Shown one piece after another: positions 9,500 to 49,915 of a stretch of 64,000 nucleotides of DNA; the first letter of the stretch is position 1; each line of letters opens with the position of its first letter. Made by a program: the position numbers and the translations under genes. Origin of the DNA: Planctomycetaceae bacterium (GTDB lineage: Bacteria > Planctomycetota > Planctomycetia > Planctomycetales > Planctomycetaceae). The DNA lies in the NCBI GenBank assembly GCA_002726205.1, contig PBSL01000075.1, forward strand, positions 1 through 64,000, given 5' to 3'. The notes beneath the pieces were generated by a model. The model ran no database searches and was not told where the DNA came from. It saw nothing but the letters and a program-made list of their open reading frames with translations.

Positions 9500-11215
9500 A
9501 TGGCTTACGAAATCAAGCGATCCAGTTACGCGGAAATCTACGGTCCCACCACCGGGGACCGGCTGCGACTGGGTGACACCTCGCTGGTCCTGGAAGTCGA
9601 AAAGGACCATGCCGTCTACGGTGACGAGTGCAAGTTCGGAGGCGGGAAGGTCCTGCGGGAAGGCATGGGACAGGCCGCCGGTGTCTCGCAGGCCGATGCA
9701 CTCGACCTGCTGATCACCAACGCGCTGGTGGTCGATTACACCGGGATCTACAAGGCCGACGTCGGGATCAAGCAGGGCCGGATCGTGGGAATCGGCAAGG
9801 CCGGCAATCCCGATGTCATGGCGGGTGTCGATCCGAACATGGTGGTGGGGGTCACCACCGAGGTGGTTGCCGGGGAGGGAAAGATCCTGACCGCCGGAGG
9901 ACTCGACACTCACATTCACTTCATCTGCCCCCAGCAGGCCCTGGAAGCGATCGCCAGCGGACTGACCACGATGCTCGGCGGCGGAACGGGACCGGCCACC
10001 GGGACCTGCGCGACCACCTGCACGCCCGGTGCCGACCACGTCCGGATGATGCTGCAGGCCACCGACGACCTGCCGCTGAACTTTGCCTTTCTCGGCAAGG
10101 GAAACACGGCCAAGCCCGAGGGGCTTGCCGAACAGATCGTGGGCGGGGCCGTCGGCCTGAAACTCCACGAGGACTGGGGAACAACCCCCGCGGCAATCGA
10201 CTGTTGCCTGGGCGTTGCCGAGGACTACGACGTGCAGGTCTGCATCCACACCGACACGCTCAACGAATCGGGGTTCGTCGAGGCATCGATCGCCGCCTTC
10301 GATGGTCGCACGATCCACACCTACCACTCCGAGGGAGCCGGCGGTGGACACGCCCCGGACATTCTCACCGTCTGCGGCCAACCCAACGTCCTGCCCAGTT
10401 CGACCAACCCCACACGACCATTCACCCGCAACACGATCGACGAACACCTCGACATGCTGATGGTCTGCCATCACCTCGACAAGAACCTGCCCGAGGACGT
10501 GGCGTTTGCCGAGAGCCGGATTCGCGGTGAGACGATCGCCGCCGAGGACATCCTGCACGACATGGGCGCGATCAGCATCATGGGATCCGACTCCCAGGCG
10601 ATGGGACGCGTCGGCGAGGTGATCACGCGGACCTGGCAAACCGCCGACAAGATGCTGGCTCAACGGGGACGCCTGGACGAGGAAACCGGGGACAATGACA
10701 ACCAGCGGATCCGCCGTTACATCGCCAAGTACACGATCAATCCGGCAATCGCACACGGGATGAGCCACGAGATCGGGTCGATCGAGGTGGGTAAGCTGGC
10801 CGACCTGGCACTCTGGCACCCGGCATTCTTCGGAGCCAAGCCGGAGATGGTCATCAAGGGCGGCATCATCGCCTACAGCCAGATGGGCGACCCGAACGCG
10901 TCGATTCCCACCCCCCAGCCGGTGTTCATGCGACCGATGTTTGGCGGTTACGGCCGCGCGGCCGCGCCGATCTCGCTGGCCTTCGTCAGCCAGGCCTGCC
11001 TGGACCAGGGTGCCGCCGCCGACTACGGGCTCTCCAAGACGCTCGCGGCCGTCAGCAACTGCCGATCGATCGGCAAGCAGGACATGGCTCTCAACGATGC
11101 CACCCCGGAACTTCACGTTGACCCCGAGACCTACCAGGTGACCGCCGACGGGCAGGAACTGACCTGCGAACCCGCCGAACAACTCCCGCTGGCCCAGCGT
11201 TACTTCCTGTTCTGA
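9500..11215 (+). CDS. ureC: Urease alpha (catalytic) subunit UreC
   Basis: Hydrolyses urea to ammonia and carbamate at a di-nickel centre. 571 residues, full length. All active-site residues are present, with numbering offset +4 from Klebsiella: nickel ligands His138 and His140 (THIHF), carbamylated Lys221 (GLKLHEDWG), His250, His276 and Asp364 ([10 protein letters not shown]), plus flap Cys323 and His324 (MVCHHLD). It is the last gene of the operon; ureE, ureF and ureG do not follow. Its last 16 bases overlap the end of the convergent sulfatase gene. Confidence 0.97.
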
Positions 11216-37409: not shown

Positions 37410-38819
37410 CTACACGGACTCCACCACCGACTCCAGCGCCTCGACAATCCGCGAATCGTCTTCGGCCAACACGCTGCGAAGATCGACCAGGACCTGGTCG
37501 TTCTGGATCCGCGTGAACAGTCGCTGTGGTCCCGTTCTCAATCGCAGGGCCAACTCGTCGGCCGAGGTCTCCGCCCGCGTCACCGCCAGCACGGCCGTCG
37601 GCAGTTCGGCACCCGGCAGCGATCCTCCGCCCACCAGTGCCGTGTCCGGCCGCACCGTGACCGTCAGCGACTCGAGAGCACCGAGCTTCTTCGCGATCGC
37701 CTCGGCCCGGGCCACCAGGTCGGACTCGGTCGCGGCCAACAGCCGAAGCAGCGGGATCTCGGTTTCCGCCCGGCCGCGGCCATACGCATCCAGTGTGGCC
37801 GACAACGCGGCCAGCGTCAGCTTGCCGACGCGGACGGCCCGGGCCAGTGGGTGCTGGCGGATCGGTTCGACGAACTCCCGTTTGCCGAGGATGATTCCCG
37901 CCTGGGGGCCCCCCATCAGCTTGTCACCGCTTCCCAGCACGACGTCAGCCCCCTCGGCCAGGCTCTCGCGAAACGTCGGTTCACTGGGCAGACCGAACTT
38001 CTCCACGTCGATCATTGCCCCGCTGCCGATGTCATCGATCGCGATCAGTCCATGCTCGTGGGCCAGCGGGGCCAGCAGATCGATGCCGGGCGTGTCGGTG
38101 AATCCCACCACGCGATAGTTGGATGTGTGAACATGCATGATCGCGGCCGTGTCGGGTCCAATCGCCTGGGCATAGTCGCTCACGCTGGTGCGGTTGGTCG
38201 TGCCAACCTCTCGCAGCACCACACCGGAAAGCTCAAAGATCTCCGGCAGGCGAAAAGAACCCCCGATCTCGATCAGTTGACCACGGGAGATGATCACCTC
38301 GCGACCGGCGCACAACGCCTGCAACGTCAACAGCGTGGCGGCGGCATTGTTGTTGACCACCACCGAGTCCTCGGCACCGCACAAAGCCCGCCAGGTGGCC
38401 TGCAACTGGTGACCACGGTAACGCCGCTCCCCCGTCTCCAGGTCCACCTCGACATTTCCCGCACCCCCGAGTTCATCGATGGCATCGCGGGCGGTTGCCG
38501 AGAGCGGGGATCGCCCCAGCCCGGTGTGCAACACGACCCCGGTCGCATTGATCACCCGATCGAACCGTCTCAACCGAGACCTGATCGACTGCTCCACGAC
38601 GGCCTCGATCACCCTCCCTGTCAACGACTCCCGATTCTCCTCCCCGGTCGATTCATCGGTCGCAAGCAACCAGTCACGGACATCGTCGAGCGCCTGGCGG
38701 ATCCAATCGACAACCGATTCCCGTCCCGCCTCGTCGATCAACGCCGCGACCCGTTGATCGTCGATCAGTTCGGTGACAGGGGGCAAAATTCTCAATAATT
38801 CCTGGTGATCTGAATTCAC
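37410..38819 (-). CDS. selA: L-seryl-tRNA(Sec) selenium transferase SelA
   Basis: Converts seryl-tRNA(Sec) to selenocysteinyl-tRNA(Sec) using selenophosphate. 469 residues from a GTG at 38819; the frame runs further upstream into selB, but SelA sequence begins at ELLRILPPVTELID. Landmarks: RRFDRVINATGVVLHTGLGRSPLS, GHQLQATWRALCGAEDSVVVNNNAAA and the PLP Lys in VLGSGDKLMGGPQAGI. Forms an operon with selB, 43 bases upstream. Its presence means the organism can use UGA for selenocysteine. Confidence 0.95.
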   Translation of the reverse strand: MNSDHQELLRILPPVTELIDDQRVAALIDEAGRESVVDWIRQALDDVRDWLLATDESTGEENRESLTGRVIEAVVEQSIRSRLRRFDRVINATGVVLHTGLGRSPLSATARDAIDELGGAGNVEVDLETGERRYRGHQLQATWRALCGAEDSVVVNNNAAATLLTLQALCAGREVIISRGQLIEIGGSFRLPEIFELSGVVLREVGTTNRTSVSDYAQAIGPDTAAIMHVHTSNYRVVGFTDTPGIDLLAPLAHEHGLIAIDDIGSGAMIDVEKFGLPSEPTFRESLAEGADVVLGSGDKLMGGPQAGIILGKREFVEPIRQHPLARAVRVGKLTLAALSATLDAYGRGRAETEIPLLRLLAATESDLVARAEAIAKKLGALESLTVTVRPDTALVGGGSLPGAELPTAVLAVTRAETSADELALRLRTGPQRLFTRIQNDQVLVDLRSVLAEDDSRIVEALESVVESV

Positions 38820-38862
38820 GATTCCTGGTCCTTGCAACCAACCTGGTCGGCGTCGCCGGTAG

Positions 38863-40800
38863 TCATCCCAACGGAATTGCCAGTTTCGGCCCGGGCACCC
38901 GGACGTCACCGCGACGAATGGTGATCTCTGCCTGGTCAAAGTGCTCACACAACGGCACGGCAAACTTGCGGCTGATCCCCCAGGCTTCCCGTAACTGTGA
39001 CATCGTCGCCTCGCCTTGCTGCTCGAGCACGTCCCGGCAGATGTCTCGTCCTTGCTCGATCGCTTCGGGAGCAAAGAACAGGTCCTCGGAAACGGCCACG
39101 GCCAGGCCGTCCTCGACGCACAGTCGCAGCAGCGACTGGACCTGGTCCTTTGCCTGGCCAAGCTCCTCGGCAAGTTCCTTGACCGTCGGGGGTGTCATCC
39201 CGCCGACCTGAATCTGCTCGATCATCCCGTCGCGTGCGGCCCGCTGTGCCTTGGTCAACTGGACCTGTGCATCGGCCGGTCCGAGGTTGCCCGCGGCGGT
39301 GACCAGTTCTCCCGAATCGGCCAGGTAAGACAGAACCGCCTCAAGCAGCGCCGGTCGCATGATCTCGCGGCACGACGCAACCACCGTTGCTCGCGGCAGC
39401 GTCCGCCGCGGTTGCTGGCGTTGCAGTTCTTCCCGGATGGTCTTCATCACACTGCCGGCAAGTCCGGTCAAGCGTTCGCGGTGCACGGCCACCGGGCGAT
39501 CGACGGGGCCGACGGTGACAATCGTCCCGTCGTCCTTGAGTTCCTCGAGCAATTCCATGTAGCGGCGACTGCCGACACCGGCACGCCACCGTGCCGCCAG
39601 CGGGGTTTCCGGGATATCATCGAGAGTGGCCACCAGTCCCGAGAGTCGATCCCGTTCGCCGGGTTGATCCAACGCCTCGCCAGCCAACTGGAGATCACGA
39701 ACCCGTTTGCCCAGCGGAAGCCAGGGATCCAGTACGCGGCCGCCAGCCACCGTCAGTGCCGGCGACACGCGACGGAGGATGTAGCGTTGTCCGTGAGCGG
39801 CCACGATTTCCTCGGCCAACCGCAGTTCGGCATAAGCTCGCTCGCCGGGTTTGAGTTGACGCCCTTTCAGGATCACCCGCGCCGGGACCTCCCGGGTACC
39901 GATGTGCAGGTTCAACTCCATCCGATCCTTCAACTGCAACGGCGAGCTCGACAGCAGCTTCAGATCAACCAGCAGTCGGCGGGTGGGTTGCAGCAGGCCG
40001 ACGGTCGCCAGTTCGACCCCTCGTGATACCTCGTCGTTTTTCACCCCGGCAAGATTGATCGCCGTACGTTGCCTGGCCCCGGCATCGGCGGAGTCGGCCC
40101 CGTGATTTTGCACGCTGCGAACGCGAACCTCGCGCCCCTCGGGCCACAGCTCCAGTGTATCACCGGCCCGAACCTCGCCACTGACCACGCTGCCGGTGAC
40201 AATCGTCCCGTGGCCGGGAAGCGAGATCGCCCGGTCGACTGGCATCCGGAACACCGGTTCCTGCTCGGCAAGCGTCACCTGCCGAGAGACCTCGAGCAGC
40301 GTCTCCTTGAGTGACTCGATCCCCTCGCCGGTCTCCGACGACACCGGCACGATCGGGCAACCCTCCAGGAACGTGCCCGTGACAACTTCCTCGACTTCCG
40401 CCTCGACCAGTTCGACGAAGTCCTCCTCGACCAGGTCAATCTTGGTGACGGCGATCACTCCCGCCTCGATCCCCAGCAGGTCCATGATCTCCAGGTGTTC
40501 CCGCGTCTGCGGCATCACGCTGTCATCGGCGGCCACCACCAGCAGGGCGACGTTCACACCGGTGGCCCCGGCCACCATGTTCTTGACGAACCGCTCGTGG
40601 CCAGGCACGTCGATGATCCCGAACTGGAACCCCTCGGCCTGCCAGTGAGCAAAACCAAGGTCGATCGAGATCCCGCGGGCCTTCTCCTCGGGCAGGCGAT
40701 CGGTGTCAATCTCGGTCAACCGACCCACCAACCGCGTCTTGCCGTGGTCGATGTGTCCGGCGGTGCCGATCAGAATGTGCGTCAGGTCGCTGGCGGACAT
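38863..40800 (-). CDS. selB: Selenocysteine-specific elongation factor SelB
   Basis: 645-residue EF-Tu-like GTPase: G1 [12 protein letters not shown]3 DVPGHERF, G4 TKID, followed by two beta-barrel domains and C-terminal winged helices (about 400-645) that in this family bind the SECIS hairpin of selenoprotein mRNAs. Length is usual. Transcribed ahead of selA. selD and tRNA-Sec are not in the window. Confidence 0.95.
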
Positions 40801-47400: not shown

Positions 47401-48501
47401 TCACTCCGTCGCCTTGAGAATCGGACCCAGCACCCGGGCAAAGGCTTCGGCCTGCCGAACGAACCCGAGGTCGGTCGGGTGCGAACTGTCGACGGTCGCC
47501 TCGCCATCGTCACCGAGCAGGTGCTCGCCCTCGAGGTAGTGCAGCCCACCCACGCCGGCTTTCTTCAGGTTGTCCCAGGCCGCTTTCAACGCCCGGCGAC
47601 TGTCCAGGTTCCGCTTTCTCTTGGAAGTGACAAGGAACGAGTCGGCATAGGATCGGTCTTCGACGAGCAGAATCGGGGTCTTGGGTCGAGACTTTCGCAG
47701 CCGGTGCACGAACGGTTCGACACGGCGAGCCACCGCCCGGGCATCCATGTTCGGCAGGCAGTCGAGCACGTACACGACCGGGTCGAGCGTGGCCAGGAGA
47801 TCGGCCAACTCGATCTCCATTCGGCCGTTGCCGGAAAACCCGAGGTTGATCACCGGTCGCTCGAACCGCCGACCGAGAATGGCCGGATGCGGCATGCCCG
47901 GCCGCGAGGCACAGGCACCGTGAGTGATCGAGGTCCCGTAGAAGAGGATCGGCTTGCGGTGCGAGGCGGGACGGGCCGGCGCCTTGTCCAGCGAAGTCCC
48001 CGCGGGGGTTCCGACTTCCACCGCGGTCACCCCGTTGTACAGCGGCAGGTACAGCAGGAATTCACGGCGACCGGCCGGGATGCCCGTGACCAGTCGTACC
48101 GAGTTGGTCGGGAACTGCGTCGGTCGACCACACGCCAGCCAACGCCAGCGGCCTCGATTGTCACGGACGTACAGGTCGACACCACTGACCCCGGTGGCGG
48201 GCATGTGGGGCATCGCCAGCCGTTCACTGCGGAGTGTCCATCGGGCGTGCAACGTGGTCGCCCCGGTGACAAAACGAACACACATCCCGGCCGAATGGCG
48301 ACTGAGCGACCAGACGGGCGAGCGGACCAGTTTTTCGGCCGCCGCCGGCAGGCGATCAAAGAAGACGGAGGTCTTGTCGAAGCCACGTCCTTCAACCCCC
48401 AGTGGCTTGATGTCGTGCCACTTGATGTCCTGGGCGGTTAGCGGGACCACGAGAACGGAAAAGAAAACCGGCAACATGGCCCGGAATACTCGAATCGGCA
48501 T
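47401..48501 (-). CDS. Secreted SGNH hydrolase with N-terminal beta domain
   Basis: 366 residues from ATG 48501 (GGGGAGA upstream), signal peptide (1-23). Residues about 25-170 form a beta-sandwich; the hydrolase part shows block I LFYGTSITHGAC (Ser nucleophile in GTS), block II NLGFSGNGRME, block III LDCLPNMDA and block V VDSSHPTDLG with the Asp-His pair. Likely esterase or deacetylase on a polysaccharide. First gene of a run with maf and dus; their housekeeping roles give no clue to its substrate. Confidence 0.85.
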   Translation of the reverse strand: MPIRVFRAMLPVFFSVLVVPLTAQDIKWHDIKPLGVEGRGFDKTSVFFDRLPAAAEKLVRSPVWSLSRHSAGMCVRFVTGATTLHARWTLRSERLAMPHMPATGVSGVDLYVRDNRGRWRWLACGRPTQFPTNSVRLVTGIPAGRREFLLYLPLYNGVTAVEVGTPAGTSLDKAPARPASHRKPILFYGTSITHGACASRPGMPHPAILGRRFERPVINLGFSGNGRMEIELADLLATLDPVVYVLDCLPNMDARAVARRVEPFVHRLRKSRPKTPILLVEDRSYADSFLVTSKRKRNLDSRRALKAAWDNLKKAGVGGLHYLEGEHLLGDDGEATVDSSHPTDLGFVRQAEAFARVLGPILKATE

Positions 48502-48614
48502 CGGAATCTCCCCTGAAGTGATCCTGCCATGATAGACGGAAGGTCGGCCAACTTCAGTCTTGGACACTCTCCCCAGCGGAACGGCATGGAATTCCTCCCG
48601 TGGCGGACTGCGGT

Positions 48615-48620
48615 TAGACT
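48615..48620 (+). promoter_or_regulatory. Possible -10 element of the selenoprotein gene
   Basis: TAGACT, 32 bases before the start codon, the same hexamer seen upstream of the VWA gene. No good -35 box is visible 17 bases further upstream. Confidence 0.22.
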
Positions 48621-48652
48621 GGATGTACCACTGTCTTAACCGGGAGACCGAA

Positions 48653-49915
48653 ATGTCACGCACGGCACTGCTTGCAGCCACCATGCTGGCCACGACCGCG
48701 ACATCCCTGCTGGCCGAGAAAATCCCCGCCCAGAAGGTCGACGGTCGAATCGACTGGGTCTATGACTACCAACGGGGCCGCTCGCTGGCCAAGCAGACCG
48801 GCAAACCGATGTTCGTTGTCTTTCGCTGCGAACGCTGACAGGCCTGCAACGATTTCGACGGGCAGGTTGTCCGTCAAGACCCCGAGGTGGCTCGCCTGGC
48901 ACGACGGTTTGTCTGCGTGCGGATCCAGTCGATGAACGGCATCAACCTGGACCTGTTCCAGTTCGAGTTCGACCTGACCTGGATGTCATTCTTCATGGAC
49001 GCGGAGAACCGGTTCTACGCACGCTATGGCGGTCGCGAGGACAGTGGCCCTGAATCGCACCTCAATCGCGAATCACTGACCCGCGTGATGAACCAGGTCC
49101 TGGGTCTCCACGAAAAACACCAGGTACAAACAGGCCGCCACGAGCCCAGCGGGCGATCAAGAAGAACGCCCGAGCAGATTCCCCCGATGCGGGCGATGAT
49201 CGCCAAGCGAAAGAACAAGTGCATCCACTGCCACGACGTCAAGGTCGCCACCCTGCGTGATCTCCGTCGCGGAAACCGCTTGCGGCGCGAGATGGTCTTC
49301 ACCTACCCGACACCAGCCAACCTGGGAATCGCCATCGATCCCCGACGGCAGGACCACGTCGAAGCGGTCCGACCCGGGACGCCGGCCACGCGGGCTGGCA
49401 TTCGCCGCGGCGACCGGATCATCAGCGCCGACGGTCAACGCGTGTTGACACTCGCCGACTTCTCACGGGTGCTGGAACGAACGCCCACGCAGGCCACACT
49501 GCCACTGACGCTGCAACGCGACGGGCAGTCGATCACGACCCGCCTGCGGCTGTCGGCGGGTTGGCGGCGGACACCCGATCCCTCCTGGAGAGAGTCGCTG
49601 CACGTCGTCGGTCCCGGCTGTGGCCTGTGGGGACGCAGGCTCAGCGCCAAGGAACGTCGCCGACTGAAACTCCCGGCCCGGAAACTGGCGTTGAAGGTCA
49701 CCTTCATCTGGGGTCCACACACCCGCCGTGCCGGGATCCGCGTCGGCGACGTGATCGTCCGACTCGACAACGTCGACGGCGACCTGACCATCAAGCAGTT
49801 CAATGCCCAGCCGATGCTCAACAACACCTGGGGTGACACGATCCCGATCGTGCTCAGGCGAAAGGGCCGCGAGATGACCGTGAAGATGACGTTTCCCCGC
49901 CAACCGGTCGACTAG
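48653..49915 (+). CDS. Predicted selenoprotein: thioredoxin-like, CxxCH and PDZ domains
   Basis: 420 residues if the TGA at 48836-48838 is read as selenocysteine (residue 62). Start ATG 48653 has GGGAGA upstream and a signal peptide (1-21). Thioredoxin-like domain about 34-150 with the redox site FRCERUQACNDFD (Cys59, Sec62, Cys65), where related planctomycete proteins are expected to carry Cys. A CIHCH motif at 190-194 could bind c-type heme. PDZ-like parts at about 220-290 (GTPATRAGIRRGDRIISADGQ) and about 305-420 (AGIRVGDVIVRLDN). The frame stays open for 359 codons after TGA, and selA and selB are in the window. Possibly an envelope redox protein. Confidence 0.85.
48836..48868 (+). promoter_or_regulatory. 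UGA codon and candidate bacterial SECIS hairpin
   Basis: After the UGA, GGCCTGC (48841-48847) can pair with GCAGGTT (48862-48868), giving seven pairs (two G-U) around a 14-base loop that may itself pair CGA with TCG. Distance to the UGA fits bacterial SECIS elements; loop details are variable, so this is a candidate only. Confidence 0.5.

Follow-up and report, generated by a model that had tools for sequence, protein, structure and literature searches.

The central question raised by this locus is whether the TGA at codon 62 of a long plus-strand reading frame encodes selenocysteine (Sec) or ends translation. Within the window, by which we mean the whole 64,000-nucleotide stretch analysed here, this frame starts with ATG at 48653 and runs to the stop codon TAG at 49913-49915, giving 420 residues with a sole in-frame TGA, around which residues 59-65 would read CERUQAC. 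An earlier note on this DNA had predicted an exported selenoprotein with a CxxCH motif and PDZ repeats, and translation and Pfam searches indeed revealed a signal-like N-terminus, the CxxCH and tandem PDZ domains, with two matches to PDZ_6 (6.9e-19) (Table 1). Alternatively, the TGA might genuinely end translation or reflect a sequencing error, leaving either a pseudogene or two genes, a 61-residue peptide followed by a 342-aa ORF. Such an ORF, beginning at GTG 48887, is present in the list of open reading frames, and the source genome is a 76-contig assembly in which errors are possible. Nevertheless, the aggregate data described below argue for a selenoprotein of the NCBIfam family NF041199, a reading to which we assign a probability of about 95%. 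TGA62 is a selenocysteine codon because it is conserved as either TGA or Cys, because the genome encodes the Sec machinery, and because a covarying SECIS hairpin is confined to the family members that carry TGA.

Table 1. Coordinates of the selenoprotein gene, its domains and motifs, and the nearby Sec genes in the window.
Feature	Position	Strand	Basis or remark
selA, Sec synthase	37410-39173	-	TIGR00474, 509.5 bits, cutoff 268
selB, Sec-specific elongation factor	38863-40800	-	TIGR00475, 356.4 bits, cutoff 242
Selenoprotein gene, NF041199 (Trx7/PDZ seleno) family	48653-49915	+	420 aa, one Sec; translation, Pfam, NCBIfam
Signal-peptide-like N-terminus MSRTALLAATMLATTATSLLA	48653-48715	+	by eye
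Thioredoxin_7 domain, residues 34-96	48752-48940	+	Pfam E 6.1e-11; fold in AlphaFold model agrees
Cys59 codon TGC	48827-48829	+	homologue alignment
Sec62 codon TGA, canonical N-terminal (nucleophile) position of thioredoxin motif	48836-48838	+	translation, alignment, structures, model
Cys65, resolving-Cys position	48845-48847	+	alignment, solved structures
bSECIS hairpin GACGGGC-AGGUU-GUCCGUC, within codons 69-75	48857-48875	+	stem starts 18 nt past UGA
Thr109, at expected cis-Pro position	48977-48979	+	alignment of 134
CIHCH, residues 190-194, c-type haem-type motif	49220-49234	+	alignment of 134
First PDZ domain, residues 236-289	49358-49519	+	Pfam
Second PDZ domain, about residues 352-413, limits approximate	49706-49891	+	second Pfam stretch; fold in model

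To follow codon 62 across the family, 392 planctomycete genomes were searched, of which 124 contained a homologue at E <= 1e-12, and 134 members from these loci were aligned for codon counts. Codon 62 is TGA in 95 of the members and Cys in 39, and nothing else, so that the proposed replacement of a redox Cys by an in-frame TGA, and the Cys- or TGA-containing homologues that the earlier note had suggested looking for, are borne out across the entire set. The source genome itself encodes a paralogue on another contig (L002, G000:C69:60376-61536), 34% identical to the window protein, whose corresponding codon is likewise TGA, within RCETUPEC. TGA thus recurs at one codon far more often than chance would allow: it is found in the paralogue as well as in 95 of the 134 homologues, which come from many independent assemblies, and the rest have Cys. 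This pattern stands against a stop or a sequencing error. A wider scan of 84,980 species genomes, which used a narrow clade alignment and is thereby biased to that clade, yielded 80 loci in which codons 59 and 62 read only UU, CU or CC, with four rows read by eye. These loci, some of which overlap with the first set, come from records labelled Planctomycetota, Verrucomicrobia, Kiritimatiellia, Poribacteria and others.

The RNA sequence downstream of the TGA was also conserved in a manner expected for Sec insertion. Sec members share a stem of seven pairs, with AGGUU or the variant AGUU as its loop, that starts 18 nt past the TGA and overlaps codons 69-75. Across the 95 TGA members the mean number of contiguous pairs was 6.03, as compared to 2.70 +/- 0.18 when synonymous codons were resampled with the protein kept. 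For the five-base-loop class (61 distinct sequences) 94.1% of cells were paired, as compared to at most 51% for slid partners; this class was chosen by pairing ability and its percentage is therefore partly built in, the whole set of 95 being the independent test. Compensatory changes on both sides of the stem occurred in 40 cells of these 61 sequences, as compared to 9.0 +/- 3.6 in shuffles, none of 500 being as high. The hairpin is absent from Cys members, 30 of 39 having two contiguous pairs or fewer; by a simple count it reaches three base pairs at most in 5 of the 95 TGA members. Residues 70-71, which it overlaps, are mostly Gly-Gln in Sec members and mostly acidic pairs in Cys members. 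The published bSECIS model describes a loop of 3-9 nt located 16-37 nt from the UGA, with an MFE of -7.5 kcal/mol or lower and a G within the first two bases of the loop, usually with G or U next (PMC13188914), and the window hairpin agrees with it, its AGGUU loop lying 25 nt after the UGA and its energy being -10.5 kcal/mol. Folding of the whole stretch from the TGA gave no signal over 65 nt (z -0.72) or 47 nt (z 0.16), while the short stem alone was significant (z -4.1). A covarying hairpin found only in TGA members is again at odds with a stop or an error, and together codon conservation and SECIS covariation lead us to reject a stop, an error or a pair of genes, to which we give almost no weight.

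Moreover, the Sec machinery of the genome is complete, which also counts against the TGA being a stop. The earlier note had placed selA and selB about 8 kb away; indeed, the end of selB lies about 7.9 kb from the selenoprotein gene with selA just past it, both genes being about 8 to 11 kb upstream. The profile match of selA begins at residue 127, and its real start is therefore probably near 38795. The suggested search for selD and tRNA-Sec found both elsewhere in the genome: selD (G000:C13:116990-117913) at 347 bits (cutoff 125), and a tRNA-Sec at 69.6 bits (gathering score 47) whose anticodon loop, TTTCAAA, gives the anticodon TCA as read from the sequence. The genome thus contains selA, selB, selD and tRNA-Sec, the set expected for a bacterial selenoprotein. 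A corrected sequence with TGC or TGG at the codon, or a genome missing selD and tRNA-Sec together with translation ending at the UGA, had been named in advance as outcomes that would overturn the proposal, and both matters were settled in favour of the selenoprotein. Among the genomes with family members, tRNA-Sec was found in 62 of 73 with a Sec member versus 9 of the 34 whose members all have Cys (Fisher p 5e-9, in a test that ignores relatedness among genomes), and the 11 genomes with a Sec member and without tRNA-Sec are all rated 62-88% complete. The selD of the source genome is itself a selenoprotein gene, with TGA inside CAGUAGK.

With residue 62 read as Sec, we consider its register within the thioredoxin fold. 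The earlier note had described the redox site as C-x-x-U-x-x-C; Sec does occupy the position of a redox Cys, but its pairing with Cys59 did not stand, as the canonical CxxC of solved thioredoxin-like structures falls on residues 62 and 65 when aligned. In an AlphaFold model (pLDDT 85.8, pTM 0.86) a helix spans model residues 42-52, corresponding to protein residues 63-73, which places Sec62 at the N-terminal end of the helix that follows the first core strand, where thioredoxin folds carry their active residue. Because the structures align in this way and the modelled helix starts at 63, we conclude, with the model as a guide, that Sec62 is in the nucleophile position (U62xxC65) and that Cys59 is an extra residue, which corrects the catalytic pair to U62-C65. 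The Thioredoxin_7 family (PF13899; solved relatives such as PDB 3fk8 and 2lst, AGR2/AGR3 and the DsbD C-terminal domain) shares the fold and has its active-site pair at the positions of residues 62 and 65. Unlike these relatives, the window family has Sec62, the extra Cys or Sec at 59, Thr or Ser for the cis-Pro, and a fused CxxCH and two PDZ domains. Residue 65 is Cys in 124 of 134 homologues. The ten members without it (L033, L086, L096, L109, L137 and others) nevertheless have Sec or Cys at both 59 and 62, and in them the resolving role may fall to residue 59.

In 127 of the 134 homologues, Thr or Ser occupies the position of the cis-Pro, which was assigned by sequence pattern. The proline typical of thioredoxin-fold oxidoreductases is thus missing, and ordinary thiol-disulfide exchange is not assured. 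In thioredoxin the cis-Pro keeps metals off the active site. It is therefore worth considering that Cys/Sec-x-x-Sec-x-x-Cys without a cis-Pro, beside CxHCH, might form a centre that binds a metal or Fe-S, or delivers a metal, instead of serving as a thiol oxidoreductase, as three chalcogen ligands stand in a row in most members, Thr or Ser replaces the cis-Pro, and the CxxCH is invariant. We regard such a centre as unlikely: 10 of the 134 members lack the third Cys, whereas residues 59 and 62 are never other than Cys or Sec, the domain matches thioredoxin-like oxidoreductases, and a redox-active motif is present in most characterised selenoproteins of thioredoxin-like fold (PMC13188914). An oxidoreductase role for the window protein is the likely one. 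UGA62 would be decoded as Sec in a SelB-dependent manner via the hairpin in the coding sequence 18 nt downstream, and the protein, judging from its sequence, is probably exported and may act in the planctomycete envelope, as the earlier note suggested. Sec62, at the start of the helix, would then attack a disulfide, peroxide or similar substrate, and the intermediate would be resolved by Cys65 or residue 59, while the two DegP-like PDZ domains could hold protein ends or partners. No conserved neighbour pointing to a substrate was found, the commonest neighbour cluster occurring in 11 genomes and in mixed orientations.

A seemingly new feature of this family is a pair of Sec in one active site, carried by almost half of the 134 relatives from planctomycetes. 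Codon 59 is TGA in 63 of the members and Cys in 71; each of the 63 also has Sec62, and none of the 134 combines Sec59 with Cys62. Both Sec codons of these members are apparently served by one RNA signal, as the hairpin loop lies 34 nt past UGA59 and 25 nt past UGA62, both inside the 16-37 nt range. On a quick maximum-likelihood tree built without the active-site columns, about 4 changes were needed to explain residue 62, as compared to about 21 for residue 59, counts that cannot tell gain from loss and that come from a tree including near relatives and many weakly supported branches. We propose that, given UGA62 and its hairpin, one base substitution would suffice to turn residue 59 from Cys (TGC) into Sec (TGA) or back, and second selenocysteines would therefore come and go freely. 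On balance we lean towards a scheme in which one hairpin decodes two UGAs nine bases apart, Sec59 is gained or lost freely, and the hairpin disappears when Sec62 is lost, a step that is seldom or never undone. The two-Sec members would have a U-x-x-U-x-x-C site capable of forming a diselenide, and the window protein, with Cys59, would represent one state of this switch. The occurrence of Sec59 only with Sec62 in the 134 homologues is thus a natural experiment on adding a second Sec, and bears on the question of one SECIS serving two close UGA codons. The UxxU Prx-like 2 selenoproteins similarly have two Sec, two residues apart, in one redox motif (PMC2398784), but they belong to a different family, and in NF041199 members the second Sec is upstream of the canonical thioredoxin pair. 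Some genomes were also observed to hold several family copies with differing Sec/Cys states, adjacent or a few kb apart (L080, L094, L102 and L088), for example UU with CU in L080 and UU with CC in L088.

Both Cys and the final His of the CxxCH are invariant in all 134 homologues, as haem attachment demands, and cytochrome c assembly genes are present in the source genome, which together make haem plausible. From the sequence we put the odds that this motif carries haem at roughly even, and it could bind something other than haem. If haem is present, covalent haem c might pass electrons to or from the selenol site. Rather tentatively, one can instead suppose that the motif binds a metal or has a structural role, the protein lacking haem and working purely as a thioredoxin-like selenoenzyme targeted by its PDZ domains. 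Pfam revealed no cytochrome c domain around the CxxCH above its cutoff (a NapB match was weak, E 0.09), only about 30 residues separate the motif from the first PDZ region, and for a second ligand there is no more than a candidate, His153, conserved in 119 of 134. Against this, the CxxCH is invariant, the protein looks exported from a cell with cytochrome c assembly genes, and the magnetosome proteins MamE and MamP join mono-haem mini-domains to PDZ domains (PMC3971196). The window protein likewise pairs CxxCH with PDZ in one polypeptide. Unlike MamE/MamP, it has a single CxxCH and a Sec thioredoxin fold, and their profiles match it over the PDZ region only.

The match to NF041199, 'Trx7/PDZ domain-containing (seleno)protein', scored 449.6 bits (cutoff 300) and covers residues 34-413 and profile positions 2-389 of 390, indicating that the window gene is a new planctomycete member of a family already catalogued but uncharacterised. 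The family is listed with a CxxU motif and one Sec in a 2026 review (PMC13188914), which cites the 2008 GOS study, and is also listed in PMC9312934. It is probably the entry that Zhang and Gladyshev (2008) reported in that GOS study as 'putative secreted serine protease MucD', CxxU, with two Sec sequences (PMC2398784). The window protein resembles NF041199 in its full-length match, its Trx7-then-PDZ order and its Sec at the listed CxxU position, and shows no essential difference from it; among its relatives, however, 63 of 134 have two Sec (UxxUxxC) versus the one in the review, and no published mention of this form was found in the literature searched. The label 'serine protease MucD' was ruled out for the window protein, which has no trypsin-like protease domain. 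HtrA profiles and structures match it only over the PDZ region, and the tandem PDZ domains of DegP/DegQ (HtrA) proteases are alike in sequence and fold; the trypsin-like domain of these proteases is replaced here by a thioredoxin fold, and the old name is therefore misleading. Similarly, the best 50 matches in a structure search with the whole model showed only PDZ-level likeness, to DegP/DegQ and relatives, and none of the matches listed had the same overall architecture. Gene callers that take TGA as a stop would cut or misplace this selenoprotein, which is common in planctomycetes and related phyla.

A few additional observations were made. The paralogue L002 is the sole one of the 134 members with Arg for His inside CxHCH (CIRCH). 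On the strand opposite to the selenoprotein gene, a GDSL/SGNH hydrolase gene (47401-48693, minus strand) overlaps its start if GTG 48693 is taken as the hydrolase start, which probably lies further in. Finally, Rfam 5_ureB_sRNA, which we take to be antisense to ureB, matched positions 9653-9947 on the minus strand of the window at 101 bits, and this match therefore probably just marks a urease ureB gene.
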